64,000 bases of DNA, taken from Geobacteraceae bacterium (GTDB lineage Bacteria > Desulfobacterota > Desulfuromonadia > Geobacterales > Pseudopelobacteraceae). The stretch is from assembly GCA_025355965.1 (NCBI GenBank), contig JANXYR010000060.1:62001-126000 (forward strand). The letters are read 5' to 3'. The notes beneath the pieces were generated by a model. The model was not told the origin of the DNA. It was given only the letters and a program-made list of their open reading frames with translations, and ran no database searches. The position numbers and the translations under genes are program-made. Shown here piece after piece: positions 38,184 to 41,992 of this stretch. Numbering within the stretch: the first letter of the stretch is position 1; every line of letters starts with the position of its first letter.

Positions 38184-38399
38184 ATGAGTTTACTGCCTAA
38201 ACAGCTGTATTTATTTTATCGTGACGGTTTCCGCTCTATGGTTGTAGGTAGAACGTTATGGAAAATAATAGCTATAAAATTATTCGTAATCTTCGCAGTC
38301 CTCAAGTTTTTTTTGTTCCCAAATTATCTCAACAAAAATTTTAATACCGAGCACGAACGAGCCGGACATGTTCTGGAAAACCTAACTAAAGCTCCTTAA
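38184..38399 (+). CDS. DUF4492 small membrane protein preceding cydA
   Basis: A 71-residue protein. An N-terminal LFYRDGFRSMVVGRTLWKII segment is followed by one hydrophobic helix (IAIKLFVIFAVLKFFLF) and PNYLNKNF. I recognise this as the DUF4492 family, found directly upstream of cytochrome bd genes in Bacteroidota and Campylobacterota. A role in assembly or stability of the bd oxidase is inferred from position only. The last codons form the left arm of a 14-bp hairpin that separates this gene from cydA. Confidence 0.8.
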   Translation: MSLLPKQLYLFYRDGFRSMVVGRTLWKIIAIKLFVIFAVLKFFLFPNYLNKNFNTEHERAGHVLENLTKAP

Positions 38400-38427
38400 T
38401 TTTAGTTAGGTTTTAACTCGTTTTTTT
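38377..38427 (+). terminator. Hairpin with downstream T run between DUF4492 gene and cydA
   Basis: AAAACCTAACTAAA (38377-38390) pairs perfectly with TTTAGTTAGGTTTT (38401-38414) around a 10-base loop; seven T residues follow nine bases later. The left arm includes the final codons of the DUF4492 ORF, so a ribosome reaching the stop would block the hairpin. It may be a partial terminator, attenuator or mRNA-stability element before cydA. Confidence 0.55.
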
Positions 38428-38489: not shown

Positions 38490-40019
38490 TTGGGAGATCA
38501 AATCTTGACCACGGTGGATTGGGCCAGGGCGCAATTTGCGCTGACCGCCATGTATCATTGGATTTTTGTACCGTTGACTCTGGGGCTGTCTTTTCTTATC
38601 GCTTTTTTTGAATCTATCTACGTCAAAACAGGTAACGAAGAATGGAAAAAGCTGACCAAATTCTGGATGACTATCTTTGGCATTAACTTCGCTATTGGAG
38701 TGGCAACCGGCATCATTATGGAGTTTGAGTTCGGGACTAACTGGTCAAATTACTCCTGGATGGTAGGAGATATATTTGGCGCTCCTTTAGCCATTGAGGG
38801 AATCTTCGCCTTTTTTATTGAAGCCACATTTTTTGCCGTGATGTTTTTCGGATGGCAGCGTGCTTCCAAGGGGTTTCACCTCTTTTCCACATGGATGGTG
38901 GCTGTTGGCTCCAACCTCTCAGCGGTCTGGATTCTTGTGGCCAATGGTTGGATGCAGTATCCTGCCGGTATGGCCTTTAATCCTGATAAGGCTCGTTTTG
39001 AAATGCAGAATTTCTGGGAAGTTGCTCTTTCGCCGGTGGCAGTTCATAAGTTCACTCACACTACCAGTTCAGCCTTCCTGCTTGCCTCACTATTCGTTGT
39101 GGGTGTCTCTGCGCTTTTCCTTTTACAGAAACGGCATCAGAAAATGGCCAAGCGTAGTATGGTCGTAGCTGCCGTCTTTGGTTTCATCGCTTCCATATTT
39201 GTTGCTTTTACCGGAGACGAGGCGGCTTTCAACGTAGCTCACCGGCAACCTATGAAACTGGCTGCCATGGAAGGGCTCTTTGTTGGCCAGGAAAAAGCCC
39301 CCATCATCGCCATGGGTATAATTAACCCCAACAAAAAAGCGGGTGACAACCTACCTGCATTCTATCAGGAAACAAAAATCCCAGGTCTGCTTTCACTCCT
39401 GGCTTACCGGGATTTTAACAGCTTTGTTCCCGGAGTAAACGATCTGGTTTTTGGAAATACCGAGCGCAATATTATCGGTGCTGAACAGCGTATGGTAACC
39501 GGCAAAATTGCCGTTGCCGAATTGACCCGCTACAAGCTGGCAAAGAAAAGTGGTGATGAGACCGCTGCCGCCTCCGCTCTGGCTATATTTAACCAGCATA
39601 AGGGTGATCTTGGCTACGGATATCTAATAAGCCCGACTCAGGCCGTGCCACCAGTTGCTGCTACATTCTACAGTTTTCATATTATGGTGGTGCTGGGTAC
39701 AATGTTCCCACTTATCTTTCTGCTGGTCCTCTATTTTGCCTTCAAGGGTACCATCGAAAATCAGCGCTGGCTGAATCTGATATGCCTATTCTCTATCTTT
39801 TTAGGCTATGTGGCACAACAGGCTGGATGGGTTGTGGCTGAAGTCGGTCGCCAGCCGTGGGCTATTCAGGGTTTGCTGCCGGTTAATGTGGCAAACACCA
39901 ATATTGCCACTAGCAACGTACAGATCACGTTTTTTATCTTCCTGGCCATTTTTACTGCACTGCTGCTGGCGGAGATTCGTATTATTCTGAAGCAAATCAA
40001 GACCGGACCGGAGGCATAA
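38490..40019 (+). CDS. cydA: Cytochrome bd ubiquinol oxidase subunit I
   Basis: A 509-residue heme-bearing subunit of the quinol oxidase that reduces oxygen to water without proton pumping. The high-spin heme ligand region is TAMYHWIFVPLTLG (His23), the low-spin His is in VAVHKFTHTTSS near 186, and the conserved GWVVAEVGRQPWAIQG is near 450. The quinol loop is of moderate length. The start is TTG with AAGGAGG 6 bases upstream. Co-transcribed with cydB, 3 bases downstream. In an otherwise anaerobic-looking organism it would serve oxygen detoxification or microaerobic growth. Confidence 0.95.
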   Translation: MGDQILTTVDWARAQFALTAMYHWIFVPLTLGLSFLIAFFESIYVKTGNEEWKKLTKFWMTIFGINFAIGVATGIIMEFEFGTNWSNYSWMVGDIFGAPLAIEGIFAFFIEATFFAVMFFGWQRASKGFHLFSTWMVAVGSNLSAVWILVANGWMQYPAGMAFNPDKARFEMQNFWEVALSPVAVHKFTHTTSSAFLLASLFVVGVSALFLLQKRHQKMAKRSMVVAAVFGFIASIFVAFTGDEAAFNVAHRQPMKLAAMEGLFVGQEKAPIIAMGIINPNKKAGDNLPAFYQETKIPGLLSLLAYRDFNSFVPGVNDLVFGNTERNIIGAEQRMVTGKIAVAELTRYKLAKKSGDETAAASALAIFNQHKGDLGYGYLISPTQAVPPVAATFYSFHIMVVLGTMFPLIFLLVLYFAFKGTIENQRWLNLICLFSIFLGYVAQQAGWVVAEVGRQPWAIQGLLPVNVANTNIATSNVQITFFIFLAIFTALLLAEIRIILKQIKTGPEA

Positions 40020-40022
40020 ACA

Positions 40023-41159
40023 ATGATAGGAAACCTGGATTACGCAACCCTACAGCAACTCTGGTGGCTGATTACTTCTGTAGTCGGATCGCTCTTTCTT
40101 TTCCTGACTTTTGTTCAGGGCGGCCAGACCCTTATTTTCACAACAGCGACCACTGAAGAAGAAAAATCCCTGATAATTAACACTATGGGGCGTAAATGGG
40201 AGCTTACCTTTACGACGCTGGTGCTCTTCGGTGGCGCATTGTTCGCGGCTTTTCCGCTCTTTTACGCGACCAGCTTCGGCGGGGCTTACTGGGTGTGGAT
40301 GCTCATTCTGTTTACATTTATTATTCAAGCGGTCAGTTATGAATACCGCAAAAAACCTGATAATTTTCTCGGGGCCAGAACGTATGAAGTATTCATGTTT
40401 ATCAACGGCAGCGTGGGGATACTTCTAATCGGCGCAGCAGTGGGCACCTTCTTTACCGGTTCCCGTTTTAGTCTGAATATGTTTAACTCGGTAACTTGGG
40501 GTACTTCGTATCATGGTCTGGAAGCGGCACTTAACTTGTTTAATCTTTCCTTTGGCCTGTTTCTCGTATTTCTTGCTCGAACACTCGGAGCGATGTATAT
40601 CGTCAACCACGTTGACCATGAAGCCCTGGTGAAGAGAGCACGTAAAGCGACCTGGATAAACCTAGTCCTGGCATTGCCCTTTCTGCTGATAATCCTGATC
40701 AGTCTTGTGACAATGGACGGCTTTGCTGTTGATCCAACTACCGGTACAATTTTTATGGAGAAGGGTAAATATCTTCATAACCTTTTGGGGATGCCTGCTG
40801 TGGTTGTTCTCTTGCTTGGCGGACTGGTCTCTGTGATTTACGGTGTGATTGCCACCGGTTTTCTTGGTAAGAACTGCGGTATTTGGTTTGGTGGTCTCGG
40901 CACCGTGCTTGTCGGTTTGGCCATTTTTTCCCTGGCCGGATATAACAACACCGCCTTTTATCCATCCATGACTGACCTGCAATCAAGTCTCACTATATAC
41001 AATGCTTCAAGCAGTAAATACACACTTACGGTTATGAGTTATGTGGCTATCGCCGTTCCTTTTGTCCTCGCCTACGTTGCATATGTATGGAAGGTCATGG
41101 ATTCTAAAAAACTTACTCTCGCCGAACTTGCCGGTGAAGATGCAAATGAAATGTACTAA
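40023..41159 (+). CDS. cydB: Cytochrome bd ubiquinol oxidase subunit II
   Basis: A 378-residue polytopic partner of CydA with about eight or nine helices. The N-terminal DYATLQQLWWLITSVVGSLF, GRKWELTFTTLVLFGGALF and YHGLEAALNLFNLSFGLFLV segments are typical of CydB. It binds no heme itself but stabilises the heme cluster in CydA. The length and spacing fit the family. It is followed by a 30-residue membrane peptide before the terminator. Confidence 0.93.
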   Translation: MIGNLDYATLQQLWWLITSVVGSLFLFLTFVQGGQTLIFTTATTEEEKSLIINTMGRKWELTFTTLVLFGGALFAAFPLFYATSFGGAYWVWMLILFTFIIQAVSYEYRKKPDNFLGARTYEVFMFINGSVGILLIGAAVGTFFTGSRFSLNMFNSVTWGTSYHGLEAALNLFNLSFGLFLVFLARTLGAMYIVNHVDHEALVKRARKATWINLVLALPFLLIILISLVTMDGFAVDPTTGTIFMEKGKYLHNLLGMPAVVVLLLGGLVSVIYGVIATGFLGKNCGIWFGGLGTVLVGLAIFSLAGYNNTAFYPSMTDLQSSLTIYNASSSKYTLTVMSYVAIAVPFVLAYVAYVWKVMDSKKLTLAELAGEDANEMY

Positions 41160-41180
41160 ACTAAAAAAGGGAGTACGACC

Positions 41181-41273
41181 ATGAATACAATTCTGCTCAT
41201 AAGTTGGCTACTGGTATTGGTTGTCTCGTACCAAGGCGCCATAGTTATACTCAAAAAAACAGATCTGCTGTAA
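41181..41273 (+). CDS. 30-residue single-helix peptide, candidate third bd-oxidase subunit
   Basis: An ORF of 30 codons beginning 21 bases after cydB, with GGGAG 7 bases before its ATG, and lying before the operon terminator. The peptide begins MNTILLISWLLVLVVSYQGA, contains one hydrophobic helix with a Trp at position 9, and ends with a short basic tail (ILKKTDLL). The size, topology and position match CydX/CydS-type accessory subunits, but it lacks the CydX pattern (WYFAW...) I know. It is probably the third subunit in this lineage; proof requires conservation or proteomics. Confidence 0.65.
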   Translation: MNTILLISWLLVLVVSYQGAIVILKKTDLL

Positions 41274-41296: not shown

Positions 41297-41335
41297 AGAC
41301 AGGCGCAGAAAAATTTCTGTGCCTGTCTTTTTATT
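41297..41335 (+). terminator. Rho-independent terminator of the cyd operon
   Basis: AGACAGGCGCAGAAA (41297-41311) and TTTCTGTGCCTGTCT (41314-41328) form a long stem with one G-U pair, followed by TTTTATTTG. It places the 30-residue ORF inside the cyd transcript. Confidence 0.85.
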
Positions 41336-41494: not shown

Positions 41495-41992
41495 TTGGCT
41501 GCTATTTCGTTTGAAGAAATCATGTTTACCATCATGTCCGCTACTCAGGATACGTTCAAAAGTTATATGAATATTGACCTGCTAGCCGGCAAGGTTGAAA
41601 AAAAGGTTGAACCTGTTGATTCGGACGTGACCGGTATCGTTGGTATTGCCGGTGACCGCGTTGGATACATCATCATCTCCACCGATAAAGCAAGTGCCCA
41701 GTGTGTTGCCAAGGAACTGCTGATGGTGGATGAAGCGGATGAAGAGTGTATCCGTGATGCTATGGGCGAACTAGCAAACAATATAGCTGGGGTTTTTAAA
41801 ACTAAATATCATGAACAGTACGGAAGTGTGGCTCTTGGTTTGCCATTGGTTGTTTCTGGCCAACTTCGCGCCATTTCGGAACCTCCCGATTTGTCGCCAA
41901 CAGCAAGCCTCAATGTGCAGTGCAAAGGGGTGACAATACCTTTCAAGACGGCCGATGGTACAATTTCTATTACCGTCATGGTGTATATGTAG
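41495..41992 (+). CDS. cheX: CheX-like CheY-P phosphatase
   Basis: A 165-residue protein of the CheC/CheX family. A single phosphatase signature, AMGELANNIAG near residue 90, carries the Glu and Asn of the ExxN motif that attacks CheY-P. CheX proteins have one such helix and act as dimers. The start is TTG after AGGAGGG. No other che genes are adjacent, but a chemoreceptor lies 1.6 kb away. It may dephosphorylate receiver domains in chemotaxis or other two-component pathways. Confidence 0.85.
   Translation: MAAISFEEIMFTIMSATQDTFKSYMNIDLLAGKVEKKVEPVDSDVTGIVGIAGDRVGYIIISTDKASAQCVAKELLMVDEADEECIRDAMGELANNIAGVFKTKYHEQYGSVALGLPLVVSGQLRAISEPPDLSPTASLNVQCKGVTIPFKTADGTISITVMVYM

Follow-up and report, generated by a model that had tools for sequence, protein, structure and literature searches.

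A probable CydY subunit gene closing a DUF4492-type cytochrome bd operon in a Geobacteraceae genome

Introduction

In the cytochrome bd-I oxidase of Escherichia coli, the di-haem site needs the small subunit CydX in order to assemble. In the available structures the helix of CydX lies on CydA helices 1, 5 and 6 with its C-terminus in the cytoplasm, and the same helix makes up the interface between the monomers of the E. coli bd-I dimer (PMC6853902, PMC13189123); CydX clamps the helices of CydA (PMC6853902). Another single-helix small ORF, found 3' of cydB in 15 species, was named CydY by Allen et al. in 2014 (PMC4325964). The carriers were epsilon- and deltaproteobacteria with a long-Q-loop CydA and no CydX, the peptide had an invariant Trp and was preceded by a good ribosome-binding site, and a small hydrophobic protein was encoded 5' of cydA in every CydY operon (PMC4325964); by its position, this upstream protein would be DUF4492. 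The gene in that upstream position in Porphyromonas gingivalis, cydW, is co-transcribed with cydAB, and no cydY was found in this bacterium (PMC4668044). The CydY of Campylobacter jejuni, CioY, was found by Ribo-seq, co-immunoprecipitated with CioA in detergent and was modelled in the CydX site (PMC11955535, 2025). The name CydY has also been applied to the unrelated YnhF/CydH of E. coli (PMC6853902, PMC8951039).

Results

Layout of the operon

The window, which is the whole stretch of 64,000 nt of Geobacteraceae DNA analysed here, carried the gene order DUF4492-cydA-cydB-cydY. The features of the operon were as follows.

38184..38399, + strand: DUF4492 gene, first gene of the operon, 71 aa (PF14899, E 5.9e-29)
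38490..40019, + strand: cydA, TTG start, 509 aa, long-Q-loop type (PF01654, E 2.4e-161)
40023..41159, + strand: cydB, 378 aa (PF02322, E 3.3e-69; TIGR00203 above cut-off)
41169..41173, + strand: ribosome-binding site GGGAG, about 7 nt 5' of the ATG, read from the sequence
41181..41273, + strand: cydY, 30-aa single-helix membrane peptide MNTILLISWLLVLVVSYQGAIVILKKTDLL, with conserved frame, purifying selection and a fixed place 3' of cydB
41297..41328, + strand: intrinsic terminator at the operon end, with a 14-bp stem, a 4-nt loop and a T-rich tail

The 30-codon ATG ORF of cydY (41181-41273, +) and its product were taken from a program-made ORF list, and the letters ahead of the start codon were AAAAAAGGGAGTACGACC-ATG. 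The gap between the end of cydB (41159) and the start of cydY (41181) was 21 nt, with both genes in one frame, and 23 nt separated the end of cydY from the terminator. The 17-residue Kyte-Doolittle mean of the peptide reached 2.1, and its C-terminal tail (KKTDLL) was mildly Lys-rich. The ORF list, the sequence and the terminator stem thus agreed with the earlier note, which had described a 30-codon ORF with a GGGAG site between cydB and a terminator, encoding one hydrophobic helix with a short Lys-rich tail. The DUF4492 gene stood 5' of cydA in every locus compared, the same operon position as that of cydW in P. gingivalis.

Conservation and selection of the small ORF

The occurrence of such an ORF was evaluated against shuffled sequence. 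An ATG ORF of 25-45 aa with a comparable hydrophobic core appeared in 0.04% of shuffles of the stretch, and one that also had an RBS-like motif in 0 of 5000, while the whole window contained only two such hydrophobic ORFs with an RBS-like motif, one on each strand. The peptide was carried by six other genomes of the same genus (E 5e-11 or better, 83-97% identity), and in 12 operons read 3' of cydB, the window included, it was present in frame in all 12 with a length of 27-30 aa.

The operon sample was made up of 80 DUF4492 loci from records with organism titles, 40 further stretches, the earlier loci and five plasmid records. Retaining those in which the cydB stop was followed by 130 nt or more left 114 distinct operons, 83 of which were non-Bacteroidota. 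Each of the 83 non-Bacteroidota DUF4492-cydA-cydB operons carried the peptide 3' of cydB: 81 were matched at E<0.01 by a profile built from ten of the operons, and in the remaining two the peptide lay at +367 and +411 nt, outside the scanned stretch. Reverse-strand and shuffled controls gave no match to the same profile at E<0.01. The gap between cydB and cydY was 130-410 nt in several operons (L047, L051, L070, L079, L084, L104, L185). Retention of the peptide despite a displacement of 100-400 nt argues that the protein, not the spacing, matters.

Among 17 close relatives the pooled pN was 0.083 and pS 0.40, a ratio of 0.2, and 12, 5 and 26 of the 29 columns were variable at the first, second and third codon positions. 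Majority-base identity was 89% within the ORF vs 47% in the 3' flank, and an RBS-like motif preceded the peptide in 68 of 72 homologues. The consensus was MxxxLLxxWxxLIxVSYxGAxxxLxKxxLL, in which Trp9, Ser16, Leu24 and Lys26 were found in 65, 64, 69 and 65 of 70 homologues, respectively. Tyr occupied position 9 in 4 of the 70, so Trp is not absolute in this lineage.

Given the very short ORF and the lack of a database family for its product, two alternatives had to be considered, an ORF arisen by chance and a translated leader whose product has no function. Purifying selection, variation concentrated at third positions and conservation in 83/83 operons contradict both, and a leader would have no downstream gene to regulate ahead of the terminator. 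The chance ORF was rejected on the empty controls, the selection and the rarity in shuffles; this explanation is already refuted by the sequence evidence and keeps practically no probability. cydY is a protein-coding gene under purifying selection, and conservation of the reading frame in relatives, on which the earlier note had staked its proposal, held in every checkable non-Bacteroidota operon.

Comparison with published CydY and CioY

The window peptide was compared with CydY and CioY by description. The small ORF bore an RBS, lay directly 3' of cydB, encoded a predicted transmembrane helix and occurred in deltaproteobacteria; homologous loci were found in Desulfobulbus, Desulfuromusa, Geomonas and other deltaproteobacterial records. 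The CydA of the window is of the long-Q-loop type, CydX above cut-off was absent from the genome, and Trp at the helix start was present in 65/70 homologues. The published peptides share the place directly 3' of cydB, the long-Q-loop CydA without CydX, the single helix with Trp near its start, the good RBS, the distribution in delta- and epsilonproteobacteria, and the small hydrophobic protein 5' of cydA. The lineage of the window has peptides of 27-31 aa with the pattern W-x6-SYxGA-x3-LxK, whereas in epsilonproteobacteria Trp, Pro and Tyr have been reported as conserved. Judged on these sequence features, the window peptide can almost certainly be identified with the helper subunit of CydX type for which the name CydY exists; what it lacked was an annotation, and it does not represent a novel kind of protein. 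The earlier note had called it overlooked, which stands in that neither Pfam nor NCBIfam has a model for it, but not as regards the literature, where CydY (PMC4325964) and CioY (PMC11955535) had already been described.

Linkage to the DUF4492-type oxidase

Profiles of DUF4492, CydA and the peptide were searched in one draw of 395 genomes of the phylum. DUF4492 was above cut-off in 23 of them, and 22 of these 23 matched the peptide profile at E 2e-8 or better. In the exception (G316), DUF4492 was at contig position 2385 and pointed to the contig start, coordinates from which the operon appears truncated. CydA was present in 170 of the 395 genomes, and an intact peptide copy was absent from all genomes of the draw without DUF4492. 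The link between the peptide and the DUF4492-type bd oxidase is therefore almost one-to-one.

A match at E 7e-7 in a genome without DUF4492 (G290, of the same class) was rejected as an independent gene and represents a deletion relic. This decayed cyd operon (L251, 1355-1554) consisted of a piece of the cydA start, followed by a mid-cydA piece that ran straight into the C-terminal half of cydY (IVVSYFGAVKLLKRWNLL); the remaining cydA and the whole of cydB were gone.

The CydA match spanned about 497 residues in the DUF4492 type vs about 426-435 in the others of the same phylum, and among the matches listed every long-span CydA belonged to a genome that also had DUF4492 and the peptide. The CydA of the window aligned end to end, Q-loop included, with E. 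coli CydA (bd-I) and AppC (bd-II), and on the basis of this alignment and the match span of about 497 residues it was assigned to the long-Q-loop type. Distances between peptides tracked those between CydAs (r 0.81; CydA-CydB, r 0.86), a correlation that shared descent alone would also produce.

Bacteroidota forms

A Bacteroidales form of 34-46 aa with the motif ILWxLSWPxLIxxSY was detected 3' of cydB in 17 of the 31 Bacteroidota DUF4492 operons checked; the CydY-like peptides were in Bacteroidales MAG loci L100, L102, L109, L112, L114, L115, L201-L205, L207, L208 and L212-L215. We found no literature report of this WxxxSWPxLIxxSY peptide. No such ORF was present near cydB in the other 14 operons, and in records of Bacteroides, Parabacteroides and Prevotella the peptide was not found after cydB, which indicates that some such oxidases can do without it at that place. 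DUF4492 occurred only in the starting genome in a Bacteroidota-wide draw of 118 genomes, and in 34 of 60 genomes in an order-level draw. The plasmid collection yielded Bacteroidales only, with no Campylobacterota locus, and the viral contigs yielded nothing.

The Bacteroidota operons without the peptide would agree with a transient role, in which the peptide would bind CydA during assembly or maturation and would not stay in the complex in stoichiometric amounts. Such a role is quite improbable, since CydX and CydS occur in solved complexes (PMC6853902, PMC8951039) and CioY is recovered together with CioA in detergent (PMC11955535).

Relation to CydX and other small subunits

The peptide and 38 homologues had no credible match in Pfam or NCBIfam, and single-sequence and profile searches of the PDB returned no match for the family, including no CydX, CydS or CydH chain. 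PF08173 (CydX) matched neither the peptide nor any of the 38 homologues, while the positive controls, E. coli CydX and AppX, scored 53.9 and 45.4 bits; the earlier proposal of a sequence unlike classical CydX was thereby supported. PF10617 (CydZ, DUF2474) likewise gave no match for the peptide or its homologues. Direct profile-profile comparison with CydX produced no link (0.7%). The Bacteroidales form, by profile comparison, was connected to the family of the window with 94% probability and to CydX with 69%, which ties CydY tentatively to CydX through an intermediate. Since false matches arise easily when single hydrophobic helices are compared, descent from a common ancestor with CydX is plausible, not proven.

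CydX/AppX (PF08173, YbgT_YccB) shares with the peptide its operon place, size, single helix, Trp at the helix start and long-Q-loop CydA. However, the CydX start MWYF(A/S)WxLG is absent from the peptide, and the tail is short and basic, whereas that of CydX is longer and often acidic. CydS of Geobacillus thermodenitrificans is also a single helix beside CydA with a structural role (PMC8951039), but it belongs to short-Q-loop enzymes and no sequence similarity was detected. CydZ (DUF2474, PF10617) is a single helix encoded 3' of cydB and has a Trp; unlike the window's enzyme, its CIO-type oxidases have a short Q-loop. CydH (YnhF) is likewise a tiny single-helix subunit, of E. coli bd-I, but, unlike cydY, its gene lies apart from the cyd operon, and the protein binds in a different CydA cleft.

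A placement like that of CydH was weighed on this basis: the peptide would sit in the cleft of CydA helices 1 and 9 and block oxygen access to haem b595, leaving DUF4492 or nothing in the CydX groove. E. coli bd-I does have two single-helix subunits at different sites (PMC8951039), the operon of the window also encodes two small membrane proteins, DUF4492 and the peptide, and the similarity to CydX is detectable only via an intermediate. On the other hand, the peptide resembles CydX in its place 3' of cydB, in the Trp where the helix starts and in the link to a long Q-loop, and CydX is also the best remote profile link; CioY was modelled in the CydX site (PMC11955535), and CydH of E. coli lies outside its cyd operon (PMC6853902). 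The CydH-like placement is unlikely, and the place of CydX is preferred.

Discussion

Based on sequence and on analogy with CydX, cydY, the last gene of the operon, probably encodes a single-helix accessory subunit of a long-Q-loop bd quinol oxidase in which it replaces CydX; we give this a probability of roughly 85%. That the peptide is the CydX equivalent of a DUF4492-type oxidase had been proposed in the earlier note, and the 83/83 conservation, the pN/pS of 0.2 and the almost one-to-one DUF4492 link support the proposal. By analogy, the helix would pack along CydA in the groove filled by CydX in E. coli (TM helices 1, 5 and 6), the N-terminal end with the Trp facing the periplasm and the Lys-rich tail lying in the cytoplasm. 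Such a tail fits the orientation of CydX, whose C-terminus is cytoplasmic. In this position it may clamp the haem-holding helix bundles and thereby allow the di-haem site to assemble and remain stable.

It is conceivable, although we regard it as somewhat less probable than the opposite, that CydX, CydY/CioY and the Bacteroidales WxxxSWPxLIxxSY peptides form one ancient CydA-clamp family predating the Proteobacteria. In the lineage studied the clamp would then always work with DUF4492, giving a four-part long-Q-loop enzyme with a make-up unlike that of the E. coli and Geobacillus enzymes.

The gene adds an unannotated member to a subunit family that had been described before, and the modest new information concerns its distribution. 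New here are the tight DUF4492 linkage, the Bacteroidales form and the tentative profile chain between CydY and CydX. A DUF4492-type oxidase expressed, purified or solved from cydAB alone would probably lack a subunit. Presumably, the bd oxidase helps sulfate- and metal-reducing 'anaerobes' to cope with oxygen. Neither Pfam nor NCBIfam models the family, so cydY is apt to be missed in annotation; a model could be seeded with the two alignments built in this analysis (A2, A3).

Several further features were observed around the operon. A 15-bp A/T-rich stem-loop followed by T's at 38377-38414 of the window overlapped the end of the DUF4492 gene ahead of cydA; it is possibly an attenuator or processing site, which would separate DUF4492 from cydAB-cydY. 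A CheX-like chemotaxis phosphatase gene lay 3' of the terminator on the same strand (41495-41992; PF13690, E 5.7e-21), and the same CheX-like neighbour sequence was found 3' of cydY in several congeneric genomes. The window's own genome also contained a second, weak CydA-like match (E 2.7e-11) in a 594-codon open frame on another contig (C35:32705-33355, L145), which is apparently a different kind of membrane protein related to CydA.
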